Both the position numbers and the translations under genes were made by a program. From the NCBI GenBank assembly GCA_018335335.1, contig JAGXKG010000019.1, forward strand, positions 1 to 36,360: 36,360 nucleotides of DNA, read 5' to 3'. Every line of letters begins with the position of its first letter. Position 1 is the stretch's first letter. Origin of the DNA: Candidatus Thorarchaeota archaeon (GTDB lineage: Archaea; Asgardarchaeota; Thorarchaeia; Thorarchaeales; Thorarchaeaceae). Below, piece after piece: positions 18,633 through 36,360 of the stretch. The notes beneath the pieces are model-generated. The model was not told the DNA's origin and ran no database searches. It saw only the letters and a program-made list of their open reading frames with translations.

Positions 18633-18715
18633 CGTAGCTCTTATACTAAGCACTGTATCTACCGTCCTGATAGTCTAGGACATTTGTGTCCCGGGCTATC
18701 GGAGGAAAAAGACAG

Positions 18716-20263
18716 ATGTCGATTATGAGACGACTTGTTTCGTTCTACGCGAAACGCAAACAGAAGAGTATCGATGAGGTACTTACCAACCCCATCGAGA
18801 TAACCAATGAAAAACTTATGTCTATTCTGCACCGTCACCGGGACACACTCCTGGGCAAACAGTATAGATTTGATGAGATAACAACACCTGAGCAGTTCAG
18901 GCAACAGGTCCCGTTGTCAGACTATGAGAGTATGAAGCCGTATTTTGAACTAACGTATGCTGACCCAGGTGGTGGTATCCTGACCAAGGATCCCGTTTAC
19001 TGGTATTTGCAGACCTCTGGCACATCAGGGGAACCAAAGAAACTACCTGTAACCAAGAGAGGGCTCAAAGATGTCAGTGGTGTAACCGCCCTTTGCTGGA
19101 TGGCGTTTATGAACGCAGAACCTGAGAATCCCAAGATTGTTGATGGTACGCTCATCACCTTTGGTGCGGCTCCCGAACTTGGTAGCATCAATGGCGTGAA
19201 AGTAGGATACGCAACAGGAGTGTACGCTCGGAATCAGAATGCGTTGTTTCAGCGGCTCATAGAACCGGGTGAAGACGTGTTCAACATTGACGATATGGAT
19301 CTCAAGATGCGAAAATATGCTGAACTCATGGCAACCCGAGATGTCACCGGGATTCAGGGTATAACCACACTCTCTCTGGCTCTTGTCCGGAGGATGCAGA
19401 ACCAGTATGGTCCGTGGTTGCTTGACAGATTTGCTGGCACCCAGCACGAATCCAGGATTCGTGATGCCCTGCGGGATCATGGCACACTTGATGTGGGAGC
19501 GTTGTGGCCGAACCTCCGGCTAGTCCTGGCTTCAGGTATTGACCCAGACCCGTACAGGGAGTGGATCTCAAACACTTTGCCAAACGCCACCCTCTGGAAC
19601 ATGTATGGGGCATCCGAGGGTGTCTTTGCTGGGCAGCTCGTACCCGACATGGAAGGCATGCAGCTATTCACCAACACAAACTACTTCGAATTCATCCCGG
19701 AGGATGTGGTGAACGAACAAGACCCGGAAGTGCTACCACTGAGTGATGTCAAAGCCGGCAATCGGTATGAGATCGTTATCACGAACATTCAGGGTTACTA
19801 TCGCTACCGCATTGGTGATATGGTTACATTCGAGAGTACCAACCCCTATACCATCCGCTCTATCGGCCGATGCGGAAACGTCGTGAATCTGGCAGGAGAG
19901 AAAATCACCGAAGAGCAAGTAGCAAGGGCGATGAGACAGACTGCTGAGAAAACCGGCTACGAAATACTTGACTACAGCGTTATAGGCATCATTGAAGGAA
20001 GCAGGGGGCACTATGTTATTGCAGCAATGTTTCAACACGACCGGGTTGACGCAGTTGAGTTCGTTACCGCCTATGAAGAGGCGATGAAGACTATCAATCC
20101 CGAGTTCCGTGGGTCAAGGGAAACTGGAGCGATTGGGCCAACAGTTCTGTATCGTATGAACAGCTCAGCTTTTGAGCACCGCGTGCGGACCCATCATTTA
20201 CAGGCCAAACCGGTACCCCTCACCACCGATACGGATGTACTTTCCATCTGTGAGGCGATATGA
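18716..20263 (+). CDS. GH3 family acyl-adenylating enzyme (acyl acid-amido synthetase-like)
   Basis: GH3 proteins of the ANL superfamily adenylate a carboxylic acid with ATP and join it to an amine, usually an amino acid; the plant members act on auxin and jasmonate (family knowledge). Motif 1 is QTSGTSGEPKKLPVT (residues 99-113), motif 2 is MYGASEGVFAGQ (about 296-307), and motif 3 is YYRYRIGDMV (about 360-369). IGRCGNVVNLAGEKITEEQV begins the C-terminal lid. The 515-residue length is a little below the plant forms. ATG 18716 is chosen because GGAGGA stands nine bases before it; an in-frame GTG at 18686 lies before that site. A TTATACTAA box near 18640 may be the promoter. The substrate in this organism is unknown. 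Confidence 0.9.
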   Translation: MSIMRRLVSFYAKRKQKSIDEVLTNPIEITNEKLMSILHRHRDTLLGKQYRFDEITTPEQFRQQVPLSDYESMKPYFELTYADPGGGILTKDPVYWYLQTSGTSGEPKKLPVTKRGLKDVSGVTALCWMAFMNAEPENPKIVDGTLITFGAAPELGSINGVKVGYATGVYARNQNALFQRLIEPGEDVFNIDDMDLKMRKYAELMATRDVTGIQGITTLSLALVRRMQNQYGPWLLDRFAGTQHESRIRDALRDHGTLDVGALWPNLRLVLASGIDPDPYREWISNTLPNATLWNMYGASEGVFAGQLVPDMEGMQLFTNTNYFEFIPEDVVNEQDPEVLPLSDVKAGNRYEIVITNIQGYYRYRIGDMVTFESTNPYTIRSIGRCGNVVNLAGEKITEEQVARAMRQTAEKTGYEILDYSVIGIIEGSRGHYVIAAMFQHDRVDAVEFVTAYEEAMKTINPEFRGSRETGAIGPTVLYRMNSSAFEHRVRTHHLQAKPVPLTTDTDVLSICEAI

Positions 20264-21783: not shown

Positions 21784-22512
21784 ATGGCATTTCGAACTGC
21801 AGATCAGAAAACAACTAAGGTTGTGAGTACAGGGAGCGAAACACTCGATAAACTACTTGGCGGAGGACTTGAAGCCGGGCTTGTGCACCTTTTCTATGGT
21901 GACAGGGTGCTGCGGGATGATGTTCTCCAGATTGCTGTTTCTGCACAGCGATCAGAGGACAAAGGCGGCCTGGGTGCTCCCGTCATCATAATTGACAGCA
22001 ACAATATCATGGATGTCGCGACCCTTGCGGACTGCTGTCTGTGGGAAAACCTAGAACCAGAGCATGTCATGGATAGAGTGTTTATCTCACGTGCCTTCAA
22101 TTCCTCGCAGACCTACGATCTTGTCACCAACAAGCTCGAAGCATTTTTTGAACAGGTCCCGGCTAAAACCCTTATCGTTCCAGGTCTAGCCGATATATAC
22201 CACCGCGAAGGCATCACGCAGGAAGGTACCCGACAAATAACTCACATGGCCCATCGGTTGCAATCATTCACCCTTCGGAGAGGAATCGTGACCGTGGTAA
22301 CTGCGGGGCTATCCGAAAGCAAATCACATTTACCGCTTGGTGGGAGGGCTCTTACAAGCTGCTGTCAGGTACACATTCTTGTCAATGAATCCAAAACATA
22401 CGTCAAGTACAAGCTCGCGAAGCATCCGGTGCACCCAACACGACGAAAATCGCGAATGAAATCACCGATGTTCGGTACTACTCTGCCCCTAGAACATTTT
22501 CTAGAAGATTGA
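21784..22512 (+). CDS. RecA/RadA-fold protein lacking a functional P-loop
   Basis: A 242-residue protein shaped like RadB/KaiC-type RecA-fold ATPases. It opens with STGSETLDKLLGGGLEAGLV, the standard lead-in to the Walker A motif. Where GxxGxGKT is expected it reads YGDRVLRDDVL (about 38-48), with no Gly-Lys-Thr. The strand TLIVPGLADIYH holds the Walker B place but has no Asp after the hydrophobic run. The later RRGIVTVVTAGLSESKSHLP and GGRALTSCCQVHILV fit the last strands of the fold. It is therefore probably a non-catalytic regulator or partner, as seen for some Rad51 paralogues (inference). It lies about 1.5 kb from the helicase and RadA cluster but is separated from it by a dehydrogenase gene on the other strand. 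Transcription seems to start from its own TATA box. Confidence 0.75.
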   Translation: MAFRTADQKTTKVVSTGSETLDKLLGGGLEAGLVHLFYGDRVLRDDVLQIAVSAQRSEDKGGLGAPVIIIDSNNIMDVATLADCCLWENLEPEHVMDRVFISRAFNSSQTYDLVTNKLEAFFEQVPAKTLIVPGLADIYHREGITQEGTRQITHMAHRLQSFTLRRGIVTVVTAGLSESKSHLPLGGRALTSCCQVHILVNESKTYVKYKLAKHPVHPTRRKSRMKSPMFGTTLPLEHFLED

Positions 22513-24013: not shown

Positions 24014-24742
24014 ATGGTGAATCTCGAGAGAAACTTGGGGCAAGCTCTGAAGCTGCTCGACGACCAAGAAATGGTTGATGTAACGCGGCTTCTTGATGTT
24101 CTTTACACATGTGAAGACCGAACAATCCGGAAGGCGTATCTTCTGCGTGGACCGCTACTACTCATAATATGTGGACTGAGAAGCGATATTCTTGACGGTT
24201 TCGAGCGCTTCCTTCCCTATGAAGATGGGGAGCTCAGGCCATGTGATATCCCTGGTATTGTGCCGCTGTTCGCATTGATGTCTGCTGAAGCAGGGAAAGC
24301 ACTGGCACTAAGTGCTTTTCAACGTCAGGATGGACACGTGCGGGCCATTCTTGGTCTTGAATCTGAGGATGGTTCGGTTCAGAGCATCGCATCTCGACTC
24401 AAGCATCTGATGAATCGCTGGGCTGAATGGACTGATGTGCTCTTGGATATCGTTGAGAAAGATCCTGCTACAACAGATTGGCTTGTTGACTGGAGAGAAT
24501 TTCTGTCTGGCGAGTCAGGTTTCTTCACTATGGAATGGTACAATGGTTTACCCTATGAAAAGCGACTCACAGCACTCGATAGAATTGTCATGGCATCAGA
24601 AGCACTGCTGAATTCAGTCCTCTCCCGAGAACAGCTAGAAGCAGAGAGAATACAGCGTCTTAGAACGTGGTTACGAGACCTTGAGCCGCTTCCACATGTC
24701 TTCGGTTACGCAACAGATGCTGCTCAAAGGGGTGTTGCATGA
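24014..24742 (+). CDS. Hypothetical protein, first gene of the RadA/helicase cluster
   Basis: I do not recognise a family. The 242-residue product is soluble and mostly helical: NLGQALKLLDDQEMVDVTRL, a hydrophobic GPLLLIICGLRSDILDGF, and IASRLKHLMNRWAEWTDVLL, ending in a long helix with SREQLEAERIQRLRTWLRDL. The ATG at 24014 has no strong ribosome site. Its stop overlaps the next start by four bases (ATGA), so the downstream genes are translationally coupled to it. As the first gene after the conserved spacer element it may be the point where the cluster is regulated. Confidence 0.72.
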   Translation: MVNLERNLGQALKLLDDQEMVDVTRLLDVLYTCEDRTIRKAYLLRGPLLLIICGLRSDILDGFERFLPYEDGELRPCDIPGIVPLFALMSAEAGKALALSAFQRQDGHVRAILGLESEDGSVQSIASRLKHLMNRWAEWTDVLLDIVEKDPATTDWLVDWREFLSGESGFFTMEWYNGLPYEKRLTALDRIVMASEALLNSVLSREQLEAERIQRLRTWLRDLEPLPHVFGYATDAAQRGVA

Positions 24743-25191
24743 TGCTTGCAAGTGGATCGCTCCTAGAGCCGAGATTGTGGCTTGAATCAGCTCCCAATAG
24801 AACGTGGATGGCTGGAGCATTGGCGGGTATGATAACAAGAAATGGTTGCAGCGAGGAGTCTTGGGAATGGTCATGTTTCATTGACGACCTGAGAAGCAGG
24901 TTGGAACTGACGGGCATAACAGAACCGGTATGGCCAGGAAGCAATGGAATCGAGGGTTCGCACTATGACTCCCTTGGTGGATATGCGAGTACTTGTGCTA
25001 CAGACGTGGATGGAGGACTTCGTATTCCTCTCCCGACTGTATTGAAAGAAACCGTTCTTAGGTTGTTATCTGGCATAGCATTCTGTTGCCCCGATGGGTG
25101 CCTTATGATTCCTTCCGATAAGCTGGACAATTTCAGCAGGCTTGTCAACATCCGTGGTCCACTTTCAAAATCAATGGAGGTGTTCATGTGA
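24739..25191 (+). CDS. Hypothetical protein in the RadA/helicase cluster
   Basis: A 150-residue product of unknown family that overlaps the previous gene by ATGA and the RadA-like gene by GTGA. It has a Trp-rich N-terminal part (LWLESAPNRTWMAGALAGMI) and a C-terminal part with four Cys in two pairs (GIAFCCPDGCLMIP, CATDVDGG). The Cys could bind a metal but do not match a known finger. Its tight packing against the recombinase gene suggests a partner role for the recombinase. Confidence 0.7.
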   Translation: MMLASGSLLEPRLWLESAPNRTWMAGALAGMITRNGCSEESWEWSCFIDDLRSRLELTGITEPVWPGSNGIEGSHYDSLGGYASTCATDVDGGLRIPLPTVLKETVLRLLSGIAFCCPDGCLMIPSDKLDNFSRLVNIRGPLSKSMEVFM

Positions 25192-26222
25192 CAGAATTAG
25201 AAGAGATCAGCGGTATTGGTGCTGCGACCGCGAAGAAGCTCCAAAAGTCATTCATCACTACAGCCGAATTACTCGCTGTTCAAAATCCTTTGGAGCTATC
25301 TGCAAAATCCGGAATTGGTGAGGGAACAGCGCAGAAAATTGTGAGTCGTGCTCGGGGCTTGGTTGGAGGGTATGATTTCGTTTCAGGACTGGAATTTGAA
25401 GAACAGATGAAAAAGGCTCATCGATTGCGAACAGGACTGTCTGAACTTGATAGGCACCTGAGAGGCGGCCTAATGGAAGGTTCAATTGTCGAGATTTTCG
25501 GACCCGCCCGAGGGGGAAAGACTCAGTGGTGCGGTCATTTGGCCACACGGGTTCAGCTTCCTTTCGAGGAAGGAGGGCTTGAAGGTGGTGTTCTCTGGCT
25601 GGATACAGAGTCTTCATTCAATCCCGCAGTTATCCGAGCGAACGCTTCGAGATGGGGCCTAGATCCTGAAATGGCTCTTGGAAACATAAGACGGGCTGAA
25701 GTTGTTGTGACCGGTCAAATGGAATCGCTTTTTGATACCATTCCGAAACTCTGTGCAGAACAGAACAACAAGCTGGTTGTGGTAGATTCTCTTTCAGGTT
25801 TGTACAGGGTGGAGTTCTCTGGTATTAGTACCTTGGCCACACGACAGGCCAAGCTCAATACACTTCTGAATAGAATGCGACGAGCCGGAAAAGCAACCAA
25901 GACGATTTTTCTCTACACTAACCAAGCGACAACTGGCATATTCCCCCATGGTGGGGGATATACGAAAGCGGTCGGCGGACACATACTTGCTCATGGATCG
26001 GATTATCGGTTCTATGCAAAAGCCAAAAGCGATGGAACAAGAAACTTGAAGCTGAAGGATAACGCATCCATCCCCGAGTTCGAAGTAGGACTCAGGCTTG
26101 GCTGGGGCGGCTTCTATGCGGATGCAAGTGCGAAGGAAGATACTGAACCTGAGATACTGGACTACATGGAAAAAGCGGGTCTGAATACAGACTTAGATGT
26201 TAGTGGAGGGAAAGAGGGATGA
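25188..26222 (+). CDS. RadA-like recombinase (RecA/Rad51 superfamily)
   Basis: A 344-residue protein with an N-terminal helix-hairpin-helix domain (ISGIGAATAKKLQK and SGIGEGTAQKIVSRA, residues 8-56) and a RecA-fold core. Walker A is FGPARGGKTQW (Gly105-Thr112), WLDTESSFNP matches the DTE motif, and Walker B is KLVVVDSLSG (Asp200). LYTNQATTG and GGHILAHGSDYRF correspond to the L2-flanking motifs of RadA. RadA forms filaments on single-stranded DNA for strand exchange. The usual FxxA oligomerisation motif reads F-V-S-G, and the L2 region differs from typical RadA. It may therefore be a cluster-specific paralogue rather than the main cellular RadA, but no second RadA is visible to compare. The GTG start overlaps the previous gene by four bases. 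Confidence 0.85.
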   Translation: MTELEEISGIGAATAKKLQKSFITTAELLAVQNPLELSAKSGIGEGTAQKIVSRARGLVGGYDFVSGLEFEEQMKKAHRLRTGLSELDRHLRGGLMEGSIVEIFGPARGGKTQWCGHLATRVQLPFEEGGLEGGVLWLDTESSFNPAVIRANASRWGLDPEMALGNIRRAEVVVTGQMESLFDTIPKLCAEQNNKLVVVDSLSGLYRVEFSGISTLATRQAKLNTLLNRMRRAGKATKTIFLYTNQATTGIFPHGGGYTKAVGGHILAHGSDYRFYAKAKSDGTRNLKLKDNASIPEFEVGLRLGWGGFYADASAKEDTEPEILDYMEKAGLNTDLDVSGGKEG

Positions 26223-26659
26223 TGACTGAGAACCAGAGGCTATTCCGGATTTATACATGCCCCGGTTGCAGAAACACTGGTTATGTACAAGTAGCGGATA
26301 AACAAGAGGAATGTCGATGTAGTCTTTGTGGTGCCCTAATTGTAGAAAATGACTCAGCTCTGTATGCAGAGAATCAAGAACAGGCCAGAGAACTTGTCGC
26401 TAGAGTATCTATGAGTTCTACTAGTGAAGAGACTCAAGTGATTAGAGGTCTGGGAAAAAGAAGACGAATTCTTCGAATGATACGTGCTCTTCAGGACTTG
26501 CGCCGAAATCGAGCTGTCCCGGTACAAGATGTGATAAAAGAATGCGAATATGCTGGAATCAGTGAAGAAACAGCACACAAGTTCATTGATGTACTTGTTG
26601 AGCAAGACTTGGTAGAACAGCTACCTGAAGGGCTTGTTGCAAGGATAGGTGATGACTAG
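26219..26659 (+). CDS. Zinc-ribbon and winged-helix protein next to RadA (DUF5817-like)
   Basis: A 146-residue protein. The N-terminal zinc ribbon has C14-P-G-C17 and C34-S-L-C37. An Ala/Glu-rich helix (NQEQARELVARVSMSST) follows, then a basic RKRRRI-type stretch (LGKRRRILRMIRALQDLRRN). A winged helix ends it (VPVQDVIKECEYAGISEETA, then FIDVLVEQDLVEQLPEG). A ribbon followed by 'E.AR' helices resembles the DUF5817 domain that in haloarchaea is found beside RecA-family genes, and the C-terminal winged helix resembles those of MCM. It probably binds DNA and guides the recombinase (inference). Its start overlaps the RadA-like stop by four bases, and its own stop directly touches the next start. 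Confidence 0.75.
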   Translation: MMTENQRLFRIYTCPGCRNTGYVQVADKQEECRCSLCGALIVENDSALYAENQEQARELVARVSMSSTSEETQVIRGLGKRRRILRMIRALQDLRRNRAVPVQDVIKECEYAGISEETAHKFIDVLVEQDLVEQLPEGLVARIGDD

Positions 26660-27280
26660 ATGCCACCGTCATCTGCTGTTCCTGTTTCTAGGCTGAATAC
26701 AGAGCTGCCGGGAGGTGCTGCCATAAACCTAGCCAACCTCCTTCTTCGCAATTCTGACAGAAGAGTCACAACGGTGCAAGTAAGCAAGCATGTGGAAGCA
26801 GATCCTGAAGTGTATGTGGTAACACGCGTCAACTGGGCACACAAGGGCAGCAATGAACCACTGCTCGTGAAATTGCCTTCCTTGCTTTCTGTTCTGGAGA
26901 CTCTACGCGGCTCAAGATCGGTTCCTGAGAGAGTAGACTTGGAATCAGAAAAGGGACTTGTTGTATACATTCCTACAGCTCTCCATATCTCGGAACTGTC
27001 GAACAATAGGAAGCGGGCTGTTAAGCATCTACTTGGATTAGCCGAAGAGACAGTGGCGATTTTCAAAGATACGAAAGAAACAGTAGAACGATGGTTCTGG
27101 AAGGCTGCCCGGCAACGCGGGTTTGGACCGAAAATCGTCGAGAGGATAGCGGCGCAAGAGCCTGGCTATTACACTCCTGACCGGGCTAACCGATTCCAAG
27201 ACTTGCTCAGACGCTACTTCAGTGTGAAATTCACAATTCATCATAGTCAAGGGTGCCTCCGGGTGGAGCGAGAAAAATGA
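26660..27280 (+). CDS. Hypothetical protein in the RadA/helicase cluster
   Basis: A 206-residue product that I do not recognise. It begins with a strand-rich region (TTVQVSKHVEADPEVYVVTR), has a central hydrophobic strand (GLVVYIPTALHISELS), and ends in basic helices (RAVKHLLGLAEETVAIFKD, RYFSVKFTIHHSQG) that could touch nucleic acid. The ATG is the first base after the previous stop, and its stop overlaps the XPD-like start (ATGA). This placement suggests it works with the helicase. Confidence 0.72.
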   Translation: MPPSSAVPVSRLNTELPGGAAINLANLLLRNSDRRVTTVQVSKHVEADPEVYVVTRVNWAHKGSNEPLLVKLPSLLSVLETLRGSRSVPERVDLESEKGLVVYIPTALHISELSNNRKRAVKHLLGLAEETVAIFKDTKETVERWFWKAARQRGFGPKIVERIAAQEPGYYTPDRANRFQDLLRRYFSVKFTIHHSQGCLRVEREK

Positions 27281-29229
27281 GTCTAACATCTTCAGACCCG
27301 TTGGATCATTTTCCCTATCACCCAAGACCCAATCAAGAAGCGGCTGTCATTCACTCAGCAGATGTTTTCAGAGAGAAAAAAATTGGGCTATTATCCGCTG
27401 GTTGCGGCGTTGGTAAGACAATTGCTGTACTGGCTGGTTGGTTCGCGGCAAGAGAAAACAATCCTTCAGCTCGACTATTGATTCTCACTAGAACTCATTC
27501 TCAATCGGAGGTCTTTGAATCAGAGCTTGAACAGATTCGAAGGAAGAACCTAGAGGATACTGGTTCAAGCCCGGTTACGTCAACGAGCATGGTTGCGAGG
27601 GCGCATATGTGCCCACTTCGTCATCGCCTAGACATTGAACTCAAGCATGGTTTCTTGAAATCGTGTGCTGAAGCTATCAAAACGGGAAACTGCTCCTATT
27701 ACTGGAGTTTCTACAAGAGTGGGAAGGGCGATGTTCCCCGGATTCGATCAGAATCAGTTGAGATGGTCGATAGCCTTCTGGAGAATGCTGTTGTCACACG
27801 CGCATTAATTGAAGAGGAGGCTGAAACGTCCGGTTGTTGCCCATATGAAATAATGCGATGGTGTTCAAAGTCTAGTAAGGTGCTTATCGGCTCCTATGGT
27901 TACTTGTTCAGCCATCGAGCTAGAAACGCGCTTCTGAGTACATTATCTGTTGATTTGAATGAGTTAGACCTACTTGTTGACGAAGCCCATAATCTACCTT
28001 CCTTCGTGCTTGGCTCGGAAGGGTCCCTTCTGACAGGTAAGGACATTGAAGTTCTTCTAGAGCAGCTACCTCAACTTGAGAAAGAGCTTGGTGTATCTTG
28101 GGCTGGGGAAAGTATAGAATTTCTCTTTGAGAGCATGATGACGCACTTGGACGGAATCCAAGGAAATGAAAAGGAGCTTCCAGCCTACGAGGTGTTTCCA
28201 CGATTTGTAGTCCCAGGAGAGCTTGAAGCCCTAGTAAAAGGAGCTCAGTTTGAATCATTGTCAACGAAACTCGAAAGCAAGCTTGATCAGCTCCTTGATT
28301 TCCTGTTCAATGCCTACCGTGCAGTCAATAGTGATTCCTGGCATATCACACTTGAGCTCCTCAACCCACACTGGGAGGTAACTCGTTCAAATACAGTACT
28401 CGCGATACGGCCCTTGAATTCGGCCGGTCTGATAGCACCTGTGCTTGCTGGTACAAGATCCGCCTTGTTAATGTCTGGAACAATGAGACCTTCAGAGCAT
28501 TACGCTAGGCTTCTTGGCATAAACAGTCCCGCTGTTGCAGAGATTGACAGTCCCTTTCCAGAGGATTCCCGCATCGTACTGGTTGACAAGACAGTGACTA
28601 CGAAGTACACCCACCGAAATGAATCTCTTTGGCGAAATATAGCCACGAGAATCGAGACTGCCCTTGAGTCAGTCCCAGCTGACAAGAGTGCCCTCGTTGC
28701 TTTTCCCAGCTACAAAATAATGAACCACGTCTTGAGTTATGGTATCAACAACCAGTATCGTGGGCAAATAACGGAAGAACGCGGTGTACGGATTGAGTCC
28801 GTCTTGGAAGCCCTTCTTGACCGTCCGCAGACTATTTTCTCTGTATATGCAGGCAGGCTAAGCGAAGGGGTGGATCTCGTACACGATGGGTCATCCTTGC
28901 TCAATCTGATAATTGGTGTTGGCGTACCTTTTTCACCACCCACATCCTATAACATAGCCTTGCAAGAATTCTACGATCAGCGGTTTGGTGCCGGGAAAGG
29001 ATACTACTACTCGTCAGTGCTGCCTGCAATTCGTAGAGTTGCCCAGCTTATTGGGAGGCTACGAAGAAGCCCGAAGGACCGGGGTTTATGCATACTCCTA
29101 GATAACCGTTTCATCAAGTATTCACGAGGTCTGGGCAGCGATGTTATAGCTGATATGTGGCCATATGATAGCCTTGGTGAGTTGAGAGCTGCTATCGATA
29201 TGTTTGTTGCAGGAGGGAGAGAACAATGA
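27277..29229 (+). CDS. XPD/Rad3-like Fe-S superfamily 2 DNA helicase
   Basis: A 650-residue helicase of the XPD/DinG group, which unwinds DNA 5'-to-3' using an iron-sulfur domain as a wedge. Motifs in order: FPYHPRPNQEAAV (Q-like), Walker A AGCGVGKTI (41-49), Cys112, Cys130, Cys139 and Cys187/188 in the Fe-S insertion, DEAH at 235-238, and LMSGTMRPSEHYARL. GRLSEGVDLVHDG and RRVAQLIGRLRRSPKDRG (motif VI) close the core. All catalytic motifs are intact, so activity is expected. The ATG at 27277 overlaps the previous stop (ATGA), and GGTGGAGCGA precedes it; an in-frame GTG lies 24 bases before. The length is close to archaeal XPD. It may be the only XPD of this organism or a cluster-specific paralogue. 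Confidence 0.9.
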   Translation: MSLTSSDPLDHFPYHPRPNQEAAVIHSADVFREKKIGLLSAGCGVGKTIAVLAGWFAARENNPSARLLILTRTHSQSEVFESELEQIRRKNLEDTGSSPVTSTSMVARAHMCPLRHRLDIELKHGFLKSCAEAIKTGNCSYYWSFYKSGKGDVPRIRSESVEMVDSLLENAVVTRALIEEEAETSGCCPYEIMRWCSKSSKVLIGSYGYLFSHRARNALLSTLSVDLNELDLLVDEAHNLPSFVLGSEGSLLTGKDIEVLLEQLPQLEKELGVSWAGESIEFLFESMMTHLDGIQGNEKELPAYEVFPRFVVPGELEALVKGAQFESLSTKLESKLDQLLDFLFNAYRAVNSDSWHITLELLNPHWEVTRSNTVLAIRPLNSAGLIAPVLAGTRSALLMSGTMRPSEHYARLLGINSPAVAEIDSPFPEDSRIVLVDKTVTTKYTHRNESLWRNIATRIETALESVPADKSALVAFPSYKIMNHVLSYGINNQYRGQITEERGVRIESVLEALLDRPQTIFSVYAGRLSEGVDLVHDGSSLLNLIIGVGVPFSPPTSYNIALQEFYDQRFGAGKGYYYSSVLPAIRRVAQLIGRLRRSPKDRGLCILLDNRFIKYSRGLGSDVIADMWPYDSLGELRAAIDMFVAGGREQ

Positions 29230-29804
29230 GTCGGTTTAGTAGTTTGCCTTGGCTTTTCTGCGCAGCTGTTCTTGCTGCTTGGTTGTTTCGCCTTATCTTC
29301 ACACCTTCCTTGTTGGTTACAATCGAGTCTCTTATGGGCATAATCGTGATTTTGGTGGTTACTGTTCTCGTGCGAACGAGGTTGGAACCCGCCGAAGTTT
29401 ACGTTGATCGGGCCAAGGGGATTGTCGCGAGAGTCGGATTGTTCAAAGTCGAGCTTTTTGCAGGCCGGCTTCTGGCACATGTACCTCTCGGTATTGATCT
29501 CTCTCATTCAGCTACTTCTGTGTTAGCAGCTATGAGTGAAAGATACGAGCGGTCATCTGGCGGTACGTTGAGTTTCTTTGTGTGGCGACCTTTGACAAAC
29601 GATTCAACTTCTATTGGAATGCTCGTAAGCAGAGAGTCGTGGTCGATTCCAGGACTCCTGCGACTAGAGAAGCTAACAGAAGAGATTCTGGAGGATGTTT
29701 TTGTTCTGGAAGGAGCAATGAGAGCTGCCTATCCACATCTTCGTGTTACTGAAGCACCAGTGGGGCTGACAAAGGCTGTTCTTCGCGGAGGTTTGATGCA
29801 ATGA
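29226..29804 (+). CDS. Two-TM membrane protein of the RadA/helicase cluster
   Basis: A 192-residue protein with two N-terminal TM helices (about 7-24 LPWLFCAAVLAAWLFRLI and 29-48 LLVTIESLMGIIVILVVTVL), so the rest faces one side, probably the cytoplasm. The soluble part is alpha/beta: RAKGIVARVGLFKVELFAG, LSFFVWRPLTNDS, then a long helical segment with LRLEKLTEEILEDVFVLEGA. I do not recognise a family. It overlaps the XPD-like gene and the next gene by ATGA. A small membrane protein upstream of a HerA/VirB4-like protein recalls the layout of DNA-transfer systems, though no sequence likeness to a named component is claimed. Confidence 0.7.
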   Translation: MSRFSSLPWLFCAAVLAAWLFRLIFTPSLLVTIESLMGIIVILVVTVLVRTRLEPAEVYVDRAKGIVARVGLFKVELFAGRLLAHVPLGIDLSHSATSVLAAMSERYERSSGGTLSFFVWRPLTNDSTSIGMLVSRESWSIPGLLRLEKLTEEILEDVFVLEGAMRAAYPHLRVTEAPVGLTKAVLRGGLMQ

Positions 29805-30073
29805 ATATCCCGGGCATGGATTCGATTGAGATTCCCTTGGGTCTTTCATTGGTCGATGTTAAAGAGGCGCTAGAAGGTGGTCATGGCTACAATTTCTTGC
29901 TACTGGTGAAGTCACCGACGAGGATTGAAATAGGTGTTCCAGGCAAACGCGGACTGCCGCAAATGGCCATAATTGGAAAACGATTGGCTGTTGAACACGC
30001 ATCTTCTCGCTTAATCAAGGAAACACTCTCGGCCCTGAAAGGACTTAATTCCGGAGGTGAAGCGAGTGACTGA
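29801..30073 (+). CDS. Small hypothetical protein, 90 aa
   Basis: A short soluble protein. SIEIPLGLSLVDVKEALEGG, YNFLLLVKSPTRIEIGVPGK and the helix SSRLIKETLSALKGL suggest a beta-beta-alpha fold. No family is recognised. It overlaps the previous gene by ATGA and the next gene by eight bases, so it is a genuine member of the coupled series, most likely an accessory subunit. Confidence 0.65.
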   Translation: MNIPGMDSIEIPLGLSLVDVKEALEGGHGYNFLLLVKSPTRIEIGVPGKRGLPQMAIIGKRLAVEHASSRLIKETLSALKGLNSGGEASD

Positions 30074-32390
30074 TCGTCATGTGTTTGGCAGTCTTCCACA
30101 AAGAGATCCAATGGACGAGATGAAAGAGTCTCGTTGGACGGTTTCCAAGAGCTCAAAGGCTCGCTGGAGAACAAGAGAGCTTGCGTCATCTTGGTTATCA
30201 TCGCTTGCCATTTCAGCTCTTGCAATCACGGTCGTATTCTACCTACCTCAGATTATCGGTATACTAAGTGGAGGAATGCTGCTTCTTCTACTCGGAGCGC
30301 CCGTACTAACTGCTAAGTATTCTGAGCAGCTCGCTGACGAATGGGAAAAGGACGAATCCATTGATTCCCTCGTCGCTGATGAACGGGAACTGGTAAGAAC
30401 CGCCAACGAGCAGTACATGATTGCCTTATCTCTAGAGGATGGTCCAGCTGAGTTTCTGGGTGACTTGGGACGTCTTGTCCGTGCTCTCCCCATGAGTCTG
30501 GGTTTTTGTCTTGTGGTTTCCTTAGAGAAATGCGAGCCGTCTGTCCTTTATGATCATGACTTACTTGACGCTTCTTCTGAATGGATAGTCAATTCTCTGA
30601 GCCCCGAGGGACTGGAATCTTTCTTACTGAATCAGGCAGGTTTATGGAAAACCTCGGTTTCGATAGCCGCCCAGTTACCAAACAGGAACGGTCAAGGATC
30701 TTTTGAAAGCGCTATCCACGGTGCTTTGCCTGCAAAAGGATGGGAACGATTCTCAGTTCAACAGCTGATGACGCTCATTTTGAATCGGTCTTTTGCCAGT
30801 CAAAATCCACGTTTCTATGCTCTAGGCAATGAACTGACAAAATGGCTCATCCAGCTGAAAAGCGAACTGGCTTCCGAAGTAGGTTCCAACGTGCCAGGTG
30901 AATTTGTAAGCCCGATACGTGAAGCGAAATACGACCTTGCTCTAGGACATAGTATCAATCCTGAGACTATGCTGGAGGGACCACCTGTTGGATTGGTAGA
31001 GAACGACCTCAAGAATGGCCTTCTTATCTGCGGTGGGAATCAAAATGAGCGGGCAGGGGTTCTTGCTAATCTAGTTGAAGAACTCTTGAATTCCGGAAAG
31101 CATGTTATTCTCCTAAGTCCAGATACACAGGTGTTGGACCTAGCGAGTCTTCATCACTCAGGAATCCCGCTCCAGCTTGCTGATGATTTGATTCTGAATC
31201 CGATTGATTCGGATGGCATGAATTCACTTCGCTATGTTTCTAGACTGAAGAAAGCACTTGAGGTCCTGAACGGTCGAGCATTTGGCGCAGCCACAGACTT
31301 CGAGCTCGCATTGCAGCGAGCAGTATCCGTACCTGATGCCACCCTGGCTGATGTTACACTCAAGGATGACACGCCCGTTGTGGCAGAAGAAGGTGGTTCT
31401 TCGAAGCAGCCAACGAGCGATCCTTCAAGAGACACGCTCAGGGGTATGGAAGTGATACGTGTTCTTCGGGACGGCGTTGGTGCTCGAGCCTTCTACGGGA
31501 AACAGACCGTGCCAATGAGCTCGCTTGCTGAAAATCCTTTGGCAGTTATTACGGTCGAATTGGGAAGCCCTGAGCTTGACATTTTCGTTTGGGACCTGTT
31601 ATCGATAAAACTCAGTGGAATTGCACTGGATAATGAACTTGTAGTCATATTGGATTCTCCTCAGAATCTGTTGGCAATGAACAGTCGATATCCAAATAGA
31701 TCAAAATGGGTACATGATGTCATCAGCAATCTTCTACGACTTGATGGTCTGATTATCTCCGTAGATGGCCCCTCTATTCTGGATAGTGAGGTTCTGAATC
31801 ACCTGGGTAGTTCGATTTGTTTACGTCTCAGGGATTCGCGTGATGTTGCAGTTGCTAATGATATTCTCAAGCTTACAGTTGTAGGCCATGGCATTCATAG
31901 CAAATCACGTAGATCAAGTAGAGAGACGTCGTTCGTTCGAACACTTGACTCGGATATGGCCATCTTATCGCATCAAGCAGAGGAGCTGTCTTATCCGATC
32001 CAGTTGAATACGCCGCCTACTCTAGACCCGCTTACTGGAAGCCAAATACGGGAACGGTTGAAACTACTCCAGCGCTATGAAGAGCAAGAGCCCAAGTCAC
32101 AAAGCTTGTTGGCTCATGCTGTCAGAGAGCACAAGGAACTAGCGGCAAGAATCCTTGAACTACTTGACAGATACGAACCTTTGACCGAGAAGGCCATTCA
32201 GAGCTTTCTGAATCAAGAGGCGCTCTCTACCGCGGATATGACTCAAATACTCTATAGGCTGGAAAAAGCAAGCCTGATTCTTCGAGGACATGAAAGCCAC
32301 AGCGGTGTGGACTACAGAAACTACCGATTGACTCTGAAAGGCCGAATGGCTCTTAGACAGTTTTCTGAGGAGGTCTCGCAATCACAATGA
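30066..32390 (+). CDS. Membrane-anchored HerA/VirB4-like protein with degenerate P-loop
   Basis: A 774-residue protein. Two TM helices lie at about residues 44-59 and 63-79. They are followed by a helical region and then a domain with the secondary-structure order of HerA/VirB4/TraG ATPases: LKNGLLICGGNQNERAGVLA (P-loop place, residues 323-330), GKHVILLSPDTQ, LILNPIDSDGMNS, NELVVILDSPQNLL (Walker B place, Asp530) and GLIISVDGPSILDSEVLNHL. In active members the first reads GSTGSGKS, the fourth LDEAH and the fifth ATQ. Here the P-loop Lys is Arg, the Ser/Thr is Ala, and the Walker B Glu is Ser, so ATP hydrolysis is unlikely. A C-terminal winged helix ends at about 770 (LTEKAIQSFLNQEALSTADM). 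GTG 30066 is chosen because GGAGGT stands seven bases before. Confidence 0.75.
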   Translation: MTDRHVFGSLPQRDPMDEMKESRWTVSKSSKARWRTRELASSWLSSLAISALAITVVFYLPQIIGILSGGMLLLLLGAPVLTAKYSEQLADEWEKDESIDSLVADERELVRTANEQYMIALSLEDGPAEFLGDLGRLVRALPMSLGFCLVVSLEKCEPSVLYDHDLLDASSEWIVNSLSPEGLESFLLNQAGLWKTSVSIAAQLPNRNGQGSFESAIHGALPAKGWERFSVQQLMTLILNRSFASQNPRFYALGNELTKWLIQLKSELASEVGSNVPGEFVSPIREAKYDLALGHSINPETMLEGPPVGLVENDLKNGLLICGGNQNERAGVLANLVEELLNSGKHVILLSPDTQVLDLASLHHSGIPLQLADDLILNPIDSDGMNSLRYVSRLKKALEVLNGRAFGAATDFELALQRAVSVPDATLADVTLKDDTPVVAEEGGSSKQPTSDPSRDTLRGMEVIRVLRDGVGARAFYGKQTVPMSSLAENPLAVITVELGSPELDIFVWDLLSIKLSGIALDNELVVILDSPQNLLAMNSRYPNRSKWVHDVISNLLRLDGLIISVDGPSILDSEVLNHLGSSICLRLRDSRDVAVANDILKLTVVGHGIHSKSRRSSRETSFVRTLDSDMAILSHQAEELSYPIQLNTPPTLDPLTGSQIRERLKLLQRYEEQEPKSQSLLAHAVREHKELAARILELLDRYEPLTEKAIQSFLNQEALSTADMTQILYRLEKASLILRGHESHSGVDYRNYRLTLKGRMALRQFSEEVSQSQ

Positions 32391-34573
32391 CTCTTGCACA
32401 AGAATCGGTGATGGCTTGGCTTCGTGATGCTGGATTAGAACCTAGAAAGCTACAGCAGAAGGCCATAGACGCAGGGTTACTCGAAGGAACCAACCTGATG
32501 ATTTGTAGTCCCACAGGATCAGGCAAGACCCTCATTGGTGAGATGGCCGCTCTTCGGGCTGTATCTAATGGACAGAAAGCTGTTTTCATGGTGCCTCTCC
32601 GGTCACTTGCACTACAAGTTGGAAAAACAATCAAGGAACGTTACGCTAGTCGAGGTTTGAATGTAGAGATAAGTACCTCCGATTTCGAAACAAGCGGTAG
32701 TACACTAGAATCTTGTGATGTTCTTGTTGCAACATACGAACGGACCGATTCACTACTTCGCCACAAAGCCGCATGGTTGTCAGATCTTGGTACTGTGATT
32801 GTCGATGAGATTCAGAACATCTCAGATTCAATGAGAGGGGGACGTCTTGAAGGTACGCTTATGCGATTGCGAAAGGCATTCGCTGATATTCAATTTGTGG
32901 TCCTTAGTGCTACCGTCGGTCAGCCCAACATACTAGCTGATTGGTTGGACTGCAAACTCGTGCAGTCGAATCATAGACCAGTTCCCTTGGTAACGCGGGT
33001 TCTCAAAGCAAGTGAACCAGAAAAGACAGTTCAGGATCTTGTGATGAGTAGCATCCAGAAAAGTGGTCAAGTTGTGGTTTTCAACAGAACTCGGCGAGAG
33101 GCTGTAGCCGCAGCTCAGCGGCTTGCACCACATGTAGTTAGGCAATTGCGTCACGTAGAAAAAGAAAGTCTTGTCAACGAAGTAGATTCTCTTGAAAACT
33201 GGAGCGCCTCTTTGCCTCGGGATTTGGTCTCTCTTATTCACAAAGGTGTAGCATACCACCATGCAGGCTTAGATTTTGAGTCTCGGCATCTTGTTGAACG
33301 GCTATTTAAACGAGGTGTTCTGAAGGCGATTTCAGCAACAACAACGCTTGCTTCAGGTATGAATCTGCCAGCTCGAACTGTGGTTCTTTCATCAATTGCT
33401 TCTCCTGCTGATTACAAGGAAATTCTTTCCGCAAATGAGATTCATCAGATGCTCGGAAGGGCTGGTCGCCCAGGGTATGACAAAGAGGGGTTCGGTATCA
33501 TAATAACTCGAAGTGAAGGTGAAAGACAAACCGCTCTTGATGGCTATTTTCATCGTATTGAAGATCCTGAGAATGACGAACACGAAAGGATGCCGAAATT
33601 CAACCCCGTTCGCAGCAGCCTTTCTACTAATCTAGCAGAACAAGTGCTTGTAGCTATCGATTTCCTTGGAGGTGTTGCAGTTTCGGATCTCGAAAATACC
33701 TTCTTTGCTCAGTCATATCTTGTTCACAATCACGTAAGGAACCCAAAATCTCCGGTCCGACCGCTGGTTCTATCCGAGCTAACAGCACAAGCTGCTATTG
33801 AAAAACATGCTATGTCTGAGACCGTTCATGCGGCAATGCAAGGTGTTCTCGCTAGTACCGAAATACGGGAAGAATCTGAACAGACACTAGGAGGCCTAGT
33901 CCAACCCCGTAGTGGCGGTGGATACACGTGTCGCTTCTCTATCAGGCCGCAGAAAAGTGGAGTTATGGAGGGACCCATGTGCTCCTGCGGAAGGCCTATT
34001 TCAGATGACGGCATACTCTGCCCACATCTTGTTGCCTTGGGAATTACGGCCTCAAAATTGGCGCAATCGAAAGCTGATTTCATTATCCCTCTCGCATTGG
34101 GAGAGATGAGTCCGGTGGCGACTCTTAGCAAGCTTGGTCTTATTGAAGCTGGCTCTGATAACCGACTCAAGCTAACAGCTCTTGGGAGCGTTGTCTGCAA
34201 GCTGTATCTTCGTATTCCTACTGTCAGAGAACTCCTTGCTTTGCTTCCAATGGTTGAAACATCGCAGGAGATGCTAGACCTACTGGGTCATATCATCATG
34301 CTAGAAAGTGGGAGAAACTTAGGTGAGTCGGCATCCCGGGTTGCAGCTGAACTGATCTTAACTTCTGATACATGTGAAACCATCTCAGCAAGGAATGATA
34401 TTGACGTAGGTGACGTTAGACTCGTTCTGGAAATGCTTGATTGGGTCCTTATTTCTATTTCAAGCATTGCTGAGATTTCCAACCTGAAGACTGTAGGAAA
34501 TGGGATTCACAGAATGCTCAATGAATTACACTCGAATCGTTACGAGGGTGAAAGAAATGTCAACAAGCAGTGA
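32387..34573 (+). CDS. Ski2/Hel308-like DExH helicase with an inserted SWIM zinc finger
   Basis: A 728-residue superfamily 2 helicase. Motifs are LQQKAIDAGLLEGTN (Q-like), Walker A SPTGSGKT (41-48), VDEIQNI (DEIQ at 140-143, where Hel308 has DEIH or DEVH), VVLSATVG (III), VAYHHAGL (about 288-295), TLASGMNLPAR (V) and HQMLGRAGRPG (VI). After the core there is MCSCGRPISDDGILCPHL, in which Cys532-x-Cys534-x10-Cys545-x-His547 matches the CxC...CxH SWIM signature. A winged-helix/helical tail follows. Catalytic motifs are intact. Hel308-type enzymes act on stalled forks and the Ski2 group on RNA; the DNA-repair neighbours favour DNA. A SWIM finger in this family is unusual and may set the substrate or partner. 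The start overlaps the previous stop by ATGA. Confidence 0.88.
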   Translation: MTLAQESVMAWLRDAGLEPRKLQQKAIDAGLLEGTNLMICSPTGSGKTLIGEMAALRAVSNGQKAVFMVPLRSLALQVGKTIKERYASRGLNVEISTSDFETSGSTLESCDVLVATYERTDSLLRHKAAWLSDLGTVIVDEIQNISDSMRGGRLEGTLMRLRKAFADIQFVVLSATVGQPNILADWLDCKLVQSNHRPVPLVTRVLKASEPEKTVQDLVMSSIQKSGQVVVFNRTRREAVAAAQRLAPHVVRQLRHVEKESLVNEVDSLENWSASLPRDLVSLIHKGVAYHHAGLDFESRHLVERLFKRGVLKAISATTTLASGMNLPARTVVLSSIASPADYKEILSANEIHQMLGRAGRPGYDKEGFGIIITRSEGERQTALDGYFHRIEDPENDEHERMPKFNPVRSSLSTNLAEQVLVAIDFLGGVAVSDLENTFFAQSYLVHNHVRNPKSPVRPLVLSELTAQAAIEKHAMSETVHAAMQGVLASTEIREESEQTLGGLVQPRSGGGYTCRFSIRPQKSGVMEGPMCSCGRPISDDGILCPHLVALGITASKLAQSKADFIIPLALGEMSPVATLSKLGLIEAGSDNRLKLTALGSVVCKLYLRIPTVRELLALLPMVETSQEMLDLLGHIIMLESGRNLGESASRVAAELILTSDTCETISARNDIDVGDVRLVLEMLDWVLISISSIAEISNLKTVGNGIHRMLNELHSNRYEGERNVNKQ

Positions 34574-36092
34574 GAAAAAATCGACACAACTATCTCAAAA
34601 CAGAGAAACCATCAATGAAAATGAGAAAGAAGAGAAGAAATCGCAGATAGAGGACCTGCTTGCCTTTCTCAAAGAAAAAGAGCATGTCGCAAAAGCATAT
34701 CCTGAAATCGGGCTTGTCGTGGGAGTGTGCTTTAAGAAAATTTCCAACACTAGGAGCGTACATGTTTCTTTGACCAATGTTTTGGATCTCAATTCTTGTG
34801 ACCTTCCAAAAATGGCCATGCAGAAAGAGATTCTAGAATACGCCAACAGGGATTTGAAAGAGATTTTCGAGGATCTGGAGATCGATGAACGAATGGAATC
34901 GAAGGCAATCACAACACCATTTGGAACTGCAGAATTCGAGGTGCTGAAATCTACTAAATCCTCGGAAAAATACAGCTTGGTTCGCGAGACAAGGATGAAC
35001 TATGTTGTCAGTTCCGAGATTCTTGAAAAGGAATCGTATTCTTGGTTCTGTGAGCCTAAACATGTTCTGAATCTGCAGGACTTTAGTCTTTCTAGAAGAA
35101 GTGATGTAATAGCAAAGATGCCTGCTATTCGGAGCGCAGTGAGCACCGCGAAATGGGATTCTCTCGAAGACGGTTTTACGAAAGGTTGGACAGCTTTCCT
35201 GACCGCTCTTGTTGGGCTTGCTGGTGTAACAGGCACGCTATACAGTCTATTTGTCGGTGGTTTGGGATGGATTCCTGCTGTTATACTGGCTTCTATTGGT
35301 GGTGTGCTTGCCATTTGGAATGGTGTGACTGCCAGAAAGAAGATAGAGTCTTTCGGGCAGAGACTAGCAAAAGAAGAGGAGAAGATGTCTGAAATAGGTG
35401 ATTTTTCTCGTACTAAGAAGCAGCATAGGGAGAAAGCTGATGCTTTCGAGAAAATCAAAAGCATCAATTTCGTGACATCAACGCTTGCCTCGAAAGTAAT
35501 TGAGAATCTGAAGAACTCAAGAATCAAGAACGCCGCTGAAGTGAGCGGTGTCATAATTGAAGAATGTGCTACAAGATCTTCAACTAAGCGCTCTTCAGTT
35601 CCAGACGATGGTCTCGCTCTATTCCTTGGACTGTTTGAGGAGTTTGAAGCTGATCTTTCGGATGATGAATATGAGGATTTGGCTATTTCATATGCAGGTC
35701 TATCTGGGGAGGTTTCAGATGAGCGAGATGCCCTAATTAGCTATATGGGCGATTTATATCCCGCTTTGTCAAAAACCGGTCTTATTGATACCGAGCTTGT
35801 TGAACGGATTTATGATTCAATGAATTTGCTCGGCGGTGCAGCATATCTAGATGAAGAGATAGAATCTGACCTTCCTGAAGAACTACCAGCAATAAATGTA
35901 GAAAACGACCAAATCATGAATCGGATAAGTGCTGCCGGGATATCGGATGGGGAGGATGAAACGAACCAAGCTGAGGAAGATTCCGGTGAAGATGAGCTAG
36001 AGGTGACCGGACAGGAAATTGCCGATTCGAGGTTGCAAGGGTCCCCTCTCGAGCGAAGATCGTCAAAGGATGATAGTGAGGAGGATTCTTGA
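34557..36092 (+). CDS. Two-TM membrane protein with coiled-coil parts and acidic tail
   Basis: A 511-residue product without a family that I know. A charged N-terminal helix (to about 45) is followed by a mixed domain (46-200), then a TM hairpin (about 211-234 and 238-256, TAFLTALVGLAGVTGTLYSL and AVILASIGGVLAIW). A Lys/Glu-rich coiled-coil stretch follows (about 260-300), then a helical domain and an acidic, Ser/Glu/Asp-rich disordered tail from about 455 to the end. ATG 34557 (GAGGGTG seven bases before) overlaps the helicase gene by 17 bases. Two TM helices with large soluble parts on one side suggest a membrane anchor for the cluster's DNA enzymes (inference). Confidence 0.7.
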   Translation: MSTSSEKKSTQLSQNRETINENEKEEKKSQIEDLLAFLKEKEHVAKAYPEIGLVVGVCFKKISNTRSVHVSLTNVLDLNSCDLPKMAMQKEILEYANRDLKEIFEDLEIDERMESKAITTPFGTAEFEVLKSTKSSEKYSLVRETRMNYVVSSEILEKESYSWFCEPKHVLNLQDFSLSRRSDVIAKMPAIRSAVSTAKWDSLEDGFTKGWTAFLTALVGLAGVTGTLYSLFVGGLGWIPAVILASIGGVLAIWNGVTARKKIESFGQRLAKEEEKMSEIGDFSRTKKQHREKADAFEKIKSINFVTSTLASKVIENLKNSRIKNAAEVSGVIIEECATRSSTKRSSVPDDGLALFLGLFEEFEADLSDDEYEDLAISYAGLSGEVSDERDALISYMGDLYPALSKTGLIDTELVERIYDSMNLLGGAAYLDEEIESDLPEELPAINVENDQIMNRISAAGISDGEDETNQAEEDSGEDELEVTGQEIADSRLQGSPLERRSSKDDSEEDS

Positions 36093-36360
36093 TGAATAGT
36101 CCATGTGATCTAAATGGGCTGATTCACATTTCTGGAGAGCCCGCCTCAGGAAAAACGCTTTTCGCAATAGGCTATGCTTCTGAAATGTCCAGAAAAGGAG
36201 ACGTTTTGTGGGTTAACACAAACGGGAAGATGTCTTTCCTCACGCCTCTGAAGAGAACCATATCGCGGCGAAATGGAAACGCGAAATCTGTTAGAATCTT
36301 GACTGCTTTGGGGCATGAGATGATTAGAAAGACAATATCGAACATTCCTTCGTTTCTCAC
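36092..36360 (+). CDS. RecA-fold ATPase, 5' part only (runs off the window)
   Basis: The first 89 codons are visible. NGLIHISGEPASGKTLFAIG carries a full Walker A motif (GEPASGKT, residues 15-22) at the usual place after a short strand. DVLWVNTNGKMSF follows, where RadA/RadB proteins have the next strand and the DTE-like turn. This points to a RadB/RadA-type ATPase, distinct from the RadA-like protein earlier in the cluster because there is no N-terminal helix-hairpin-helix domain. The ATG shares one base with the previous stop (TGATG). The rest of the gene lies beyond the window, so the domain content downstream is unknown. Confidence 0.7.
   Translation, partial: MNSPCDLNGLIHISGEPASGKTLFAIGYASEMSRKGDVLWVNTNGKMSFLTPLKRTISRRNGNAKSVRILTALGHEMIRKTISNIPSFL

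Follow-up and report, generated by a model that had tools for sequence, protein, structure and literature searches.

A fifteen-gene unit in Thorarchaeota combines paralogues of recombination and repair enzymes with a VirB4-like membrane protein

Background

Among known prokaryotes, Asgard archaea are the most closely related to eukaryotes, yet little is known of their DNA exchange and recombination. Here we describe a unit of fifteen genes (A to O), twelve of which start on a 36,360-base contig (G000:C19; this whole stretch is the window) of a Candidatus Thorarchaeota metagenome-assembled genome (MAG), whose close relatives are also titled Candidatus Thorarchaeota. The unit may encode a dedicated membrane-tethered complex for homologous recombination and repair synthesis, separate from the housekeeping set, a reading to which we assign a probability of about 0.5. 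The unit is undescribed as far as we searched. No account of it was found in the open-access literature (subscription papers, preprints and supplements lay outside the search), and a 2026 review of Asgard archaea (PMC12993045) contained no such locus under the words searched.

Several described systems come close to the unit. In Sulfolobales, the VirB4-type proteins CedB and CedD function in DNA import (PMC11868833), and recombination genes are present in Ted loci (PMC9905601). The unit shares with Ced and Ted (CedA, CedA1, CedB, CedD; TedA-C) a membrane-associated VirB4/HerA-class protein with a VirB4-like N-terminal domain, encoded by gene I, and a link to recombination. It differs in that genes for a recombinase, XPD', FEN1' and a Hel308-type helicase (primes denote the cluster paralogues) sit inside the unit, and that protein I lacks the working P-loop of a VirB4/CedB-like ATPase. 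Nor was a VirB2/CedA1-like small pilin recognised, as H, the sole small protein of the unit, has no predicted transmembrane (TM) segment in 10 of 10 members. The HerA-NurA-Mre11-Rad50 operon likewise places a HerA-class protein beside recombination enzymes, but NurA, Mre11 and Rad50 have no Pfam match among A to O, protein I is without a P-loop, and intact HerA genes lie elsewhere in the genomes. The bacterial type IV secretion protein VirB4 (TrwK) is the best predicted-fold match of I, over about 600 columns, but identity is about 12%, Walker A is missing from I, and no other part of a type IV secretion system was recognised in the unit.

The archaeal housekeeping proteins RadA, XPD, FEN1 and Hel308 belong to the same families as C, F, O and J, in which the motifs are intact. 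The cluster paralogues differ in falling below NCBIfam equivalog cut-offs and in being gathered in an operon-like unit, and the housekeeping copies persist. Two RadA clades occur in some Asgard archaea according to a 2025 paper, which reports no operon, synteny or gene neighbourhood (PMC12722695); its second clade resembles the present case in that RadA is duplicated within Asgard genomes. A preliminary description of the window had held that no named archaeal repair operon, Ced/Ted system or defence system fits the genes, and NCBIfam and PADLOC scans agree. The unit as a whole fits no named system tested, and its enzymes come from known families.

A tightly packed unit conserved in Thorarchaeota

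The open reading frame (ORF) listing contains twelve same-strand genes (A to L, + strand, 24014-36360) with abutting or overlapping junctions, as first described. The contig stops within gene L. The remainder of L, followed by M, N and O, lies at the end of another contig of this genome, C36 (locus L092), and this end overlaps the window by 12 bases. In relatives with long contigs, M, N and O also directly follow L. The unit therefore comprises fifteen genes, and the original count of twelve holds for the contig only.

24014..24742, + strand: gene A, first of the unit, about 242 amino acids; first-in-cluster orthologues in at least nine genomes, no Pfam match
24739..25191, + strand: gene B, about 150 amino acids; ORF with orthologues, no Pfam match
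25188..26222, + strand: gene C, RadA'; PF08423 (2e-48) and HHH_5, profile match to solved RadA/Rad51
26219..26659, + strand: gene D, zinc ribbon and winged helix; domain match, conserved cysteines
26660..27280, + strand: gene E, conserved protein of 206 amino acids; structure model obtained
27253..29229, + strand: gene F, XPD' (start at 27253 or 27277); PF13307, PF06733 and PF06777
29226..29804, + strand: gene G, membrane protein with a predicted N-terminal TM hairpin
29801..30073, + strand: gene H, 90 amino acids; ORF with orthologues
30057..32390, + strand: gene I, VirB4/HerA-class protein; structure model and Foldseek
32387..34573, + strand: gene J, Hel308/Ski2-type helicase with a SWIM zinc finger; family match and motifs
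34500..36092, + strand: gene K, membrane protein with a predicted mid-protein TM hairpin (start probably 34557)
36089..36360, + strand: gene L, RecA-fold ATPase cut by the contig end; intact Walker A
End of contig C36 (locus L092): genes M, N and O, a four-TM protein, a RadA/RadB-like protein and a FEN1-like nuclease

Overlaps of four bases occur at junctions A/B, B/C, C/D, F/G, G/H and I/J. D/E abuts, E/F overlaps by 4-28 bases depending on the start chosen, H/I by 17, J/K by 17 (start 34557) or 74 (first ATG), and K/L by 1-4.

About 25 Thorarchaeota loci share the order and strand of A to O at 25-55% protein identity, and several genomes carry all fifteen genes on one contig. Across loci, 251 of 253 gene junctions have a gap of less than 20 bases. 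Because the same order recurs in so many loci with junctions this tight, the arrangement is beyond chance. The search for conserved synteny proposed in the preliminary description thus finds the order kept in diverged genomes; scattering of the genes in relatives, which would have argued against a single system, was not seen in Thorarchaeota, and several other families of Asgard archaea showed none for the core genes. Markers of the unit are present in about 29 of 38 sampled genomes of the family and are thus common, not universal.

The locus is chromosomal. Its descent is mainly vertical, since every genus with at least two members is monophyletic in the tree of I. In some genomes the locus is flanked by the same GH3 gene upstream and by several of the same genes downstream, and the chromosomal place appears fixed because the GH3-like flank (18686-20263, + strand, in the window) is shared among several Thorarchaeota genomes.

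A second enzyme set beside the housekeeping genes

The families proposed in the preliminary description (RadA-like, zinc ribbon/winged helix, XPD-like and SWIM-Ski2) are upheld by Pfam, profiles and motifs. RadA' (C) has the make-up of a RadA/Rad51 recombinase, with an N-terminal HHH domain, a RecA core with intact Walker A and a full-length profile match to solved RadA/Rad51. The zinc ribbon of D (CxxC...CxxC) is present in 9 of 9 members, beside the winged helix. XPD' (F) has the Walker A motif, DEAH box, helicase C domain and four invariant cysteines of the iron-sulfur type expected of XPD/Rad3, and a profile search of the PDB matches it to archaeal XPD. In J, the Hel308/Ski2 helicase motifs are intact and the SWIM motif CxC...CxH occurs in 8 of 8 members.

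A second RecA-fold ATPase had been noted in the window, and L indeed has a RecA fold with an intact RecA-type Walker A. The full unit encodes three RecA-fold proteins (C, L and N), and N is RadA-like but without a P-loop. O (FEN1') is a FEN1/XPG nuclease by its XPG domains, and its acidic metal-binding positions are all invariant in the alignment (D38, D83, E155, E157, D176, D178, D227). Six of six Thorarchaeota O proteins end in a PCNA-binding-like (PIP-like) motif of the type QxTLExW, for example QTTLEVWF. Protein E yields a confident model (predicted local distance difference test score, pLDDT, 87.7), for which the PDB holds no matching fold. Single in-frame stops occur in the XPD' gene of G012 (L028 9056-11092) and in J of G008 (L038 13559-15748) and reflect assembly error or decay.

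Canonical RadA (308-329 bits), FEN1 (about 90 bits) and XPD (about 125 bits) are encoded elsewhere in the same genomes. In the source genome, RadA lies on G000:C42 and XPD on G000:C1. A Hel308-type helicase outside the unit is found in nearly all genomes, and intact HerA proteins are also encoded elsewhere. Because these counterparts lie outside it, the unit is a dedicated second enzyme set.

Cluster RadA scores below the NCBIfam RadA equivalog cut-offs (225.8 versus 259 bits and 211.6 versus 361 bits). It evolves far faster than ordinary RadA: across the same genome pairs, canonical RadA is 79-91% identical and cluster RadA 47-61%. In a tree of Asgard RadA that has long branches, a single branch separates RadA' from canonical RadA, with a support (Shimodaira-Hasegawa-like approximate likelihood ratio test) of 87 that is not decisive. 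All FEN1' proteins lie outside the canonical FEN1 clade with support 99. A single FEN1' clade was rejected by the approximately unbiased test (p 0.0007), a result for which some labels may be partly wrong: the FEN1 of G130, labelled canonical for want of a better candidate, falls among FEN1'. Some Thorarchaeota carry a further FEN1 paralogue outside the unit (G000:C3:65091-65345, G021:C1:1280179-1280460).

A VirB4/HerA-class protein without a P-loop and further membrane proteins

Predicted TM helices are present in G, I, K and M, and the first three are the membrane-anchored proteins reported from the window. Protein I combines a TM hairpin, a VirB4-type N-terminal domain, a motor domain without the Walker A lysine and a C-terminal winged helix. 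Its AlphaFold2 model (pLDDT 77.5) has R388 TrwK/VirB4 as best Foldseek match (E 1.3e-12, about 600 columns), followed by HerA. The HerA-FtsK fold is recovered against HerA 4d2i (Foldseek E about 1e-10), and the sequence profile match to HerA is weak (E 0.066).

The Walker A lysine is missing in 30 of 30 homologues of I, drawn from Thorarchaeota and from several further Asgard families. Walker B is mostly eroded in Thorarchaeota, and an NPxD motif and the winged helix are kept. The Walker A and Walker B pair of a HerA ATPase is thus not found in I. Because the lysine is absent from all homologues, I is, as judged from its motifs, a VirB4/HerA-class protein with its motor function lost. The earlier label 'HerA-like' therefore stands for the predicted fold and falls for a working HerA motor.

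Other Asgard families encode I in two parts, with the N-terminal, TM-bearing part as a separate gene just upstream. Both halves align to I with hhalign (N-terminal part E 2e-9, motor part E 1e-42). G weakly resembles the N-terminal part of I and has a weak profile match to this separate gene. In family f2, a version of I of about 1,285 amino acids aligns over 628 columns (E 1.8e-17). At one f2 locus (L121 8786-16648), three membrane-protein genes precede the I-like gene; one of their products (796 amino acids) has an HHH-like DNA-binding repeat in its family consensus, and the set is kept beside J in several f2 genomes.

M has 3-5 predicted TM segments and no Pfam match; the CedA/VirB6 channel has 6-7, a comparison made without a CedA profile. 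Similarly placed membrane proteins of family f11 were considered as homologues of K and M. The relationship was not established for K (hhalign probability 5.9%, E 0.006), and M gave no match. An 812-amino-acid gene upstream of J in G022 was considered as a diverged I and rejected on comparison.

The core genes recur in other Asgard families

Profiles of I and J, together with the Rad51 and XPG families, were used to search Asgard genomes. Three to five of the core genes (RadA', FEN1', an L-like, RadB-like RecA-fold ATPase, J and I) lie within 5-31 kb in families f2, f4, f9, f11, f24 and f25. All five are found within about 15 kb in f11 (four genomes), within 12 kb in f25 and within 21 kb in f9. 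In f4, four of the five (no J) lie within 5 kb; in f24, four are joined by an XPD gene within 12 kb; and f2 members have three or four within 21-31 kb. Roughly estimated, the probability that genes group in this way by chance is 1e-4 to 1e-10 per genome, although the genomes are not independent.

Two ordinary-scoring RadA genes occur in genomes of f11, f12 and f24, in f11 and f24 besides RadA'. XPD-like paralogues of f14, f16 and f29 (275-352 bits) were examined as further clusters and set aside, as their loci hold no other cluster gene. Four f11 genomes encode an M28-family peptidase with TM segments in the interval between RadA' and the VirB4-like pair (L033 3490-6090). A contig scan with two short peptide patterns, which reach close relatives only, returned MAGs titled Thorarchaeota and a few titled Lokiarchaeota or archaeon.

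A possible membrane-tethered recombination complex and its alternatives

A function can be proposed from the co-location of the core genes, the catalytic motifs that C, F, J, L and O keep intact and the loss of the P-loop in I and N. Family membership suggests roles for the enzymes in recombination. Most likely, they are anchored to the membrane by G, I, K and M, of which I would act as a scaffold since it has no P-loop. This membrane platform would bind DNA or partners instead of pumping DNA. RadA', aided by the RadB-like proteins L and N, would load on single-stranded DNA and pair it with homologous duplex. The 5'-3' helicase XPD' and the Hel308-type SWIM helicase J could open or clear the joint molecule, and FEN1' could use its PCNA-binding motif to trim flaps left by a PCNA-bound polymerase. 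We infer that the products form one complex, as well as the order of these steps and the substrate.

Several points weigh against such a complex. The enzyme roles are read from families of the RecA, XPD and FEN1 type, and the idea of one complex is drawn from the genes. The unit has no recognised polymerase, single-stranded DNA-binding protein or Holliday-junction resolvase, and four to six subunits (A, B, E and H among these) have no assigned function. Furthermore, about 9 of the 38 MAGs sampled from the Thorarchaeota family lack the unit, G021, a single-contig genome, lacks A to C, and G022 has J to O only; the unit is therefore not universally needed.

The strongest alternative, which we regard as possible but doubtful, is DNA exchange. 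A complex at the cell boundary would recombine DNA arriving from other cells, with I as a derived VirB4/CedB relative acting as gate or tether, and would be a functional counterpart of crenarchaeal Ced/Ted with its own recombinase. Incoming DNA is an attractive substrate because CedB and CedD serve import and Ted loci carry recombination genes. The best match of I is a full-length VirB4, CedB and CedD also have VirB4-like N-terminal domains, and TM helices are present in about half of such proteins (PMC11868833). Ted loci include HerA and Rad50 genes (PMC9905601), and a set of RecA, flap nuclease and helicase suits the integration of single-stranded DNA. However, with the P-loop lost in all 30 relatives of I, transport as known cannot be powered, and family searches recognised no CedA/VirB6-like channel or VirB2/CedA1-like pilin. 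The preliminary suggestion of a membrane-associated machine for DNA import, export or repair of incoming DNA has several predicted membrane proteins in its favour and no recognised channel or pilin gene.

A bolder form, an ancient Asgard-wide membrane-bound apparatus with a P-loop-less VirB4 relative and its own RadA paralogue that recombines DNA exchanged between cells, is somewhat less probable still. If true, the phylum nearest to eukaryotes would possess a prokaryotic counterpart of a second recombinase system, one serving sex-like exchange.

We consider it improbable that the locus is an ordinary lineage-specific operon for excision or crosslink repair, in which co-transcription would not imply a membrane machine and the membrane genes would be passengers. 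All enzymes do come from repair families, and XPD with an XPG/FEN-family nuclease recalls eukaryotic excision repair. However, at 25-40% identity G, I, K and M are still found in the same positions beside the enzymes. The VirB4-like pair also remains close to RadA' and FEN1' in other families of Asgard archaea. Canonical XPD, FEN1 and RadA are separate.

Defence against mobile elements, with foreign DNA destroyed or kept out by rapidly evolving helicases, a recombinase and a nuclease, is very improbable. It would account for the high divergence relative to housekeeping paralogues and the absence from some genomes, and HerA-class proteins do occur in defence systems, such as SIR2-HerA, which is among the fold matches of I. 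But PADLOC gave no match for RadA', I, K, L, N, O or E and matched F and J only as generic helicases; among ten proteins scanned, one I homologue alone had a weak match, to mad8. Flanks are fixed in several genomes, genera are monophyletic, I has no plasmid or viral copies, and neither SIR2, a known toxin nor any comparable effector was recognised. The anti-phage role raised in the preliminary description is therefore unlikely, given the fixed chromosomal place and vertical inheritance. A viral or plasmid origin was rejected, as no homologue of I occurs in viral contigs or plasmids and the phage matches of F are generic helicases.

The membrane-tethered recombination complex remains our preferred reading. 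The locus offers a concrete protein set (RadA, XPD, FEN1 and Hel308-type enzymes of its own, together with VirB4-like membrane parts) for study, and a route to testing for a dedicated Asgard membrane recombination machine and whether the RadA duplication in the phylum reflects a special recombination pathway.

Neighbouring genes

A further RecA-fold protein (21784-22512, + strand; PF08423, about 50 bits) is encoded 1.5 kb upstream, outside the unit, and relatives also carry similar proteins of 50-60 bits. Large proteins encoded at 14462-16381 (+ strand) and 16767-18353 (- strand) have no Pfam match. In several genomes, relatives of the latter are found next to the unit at its downstream end.

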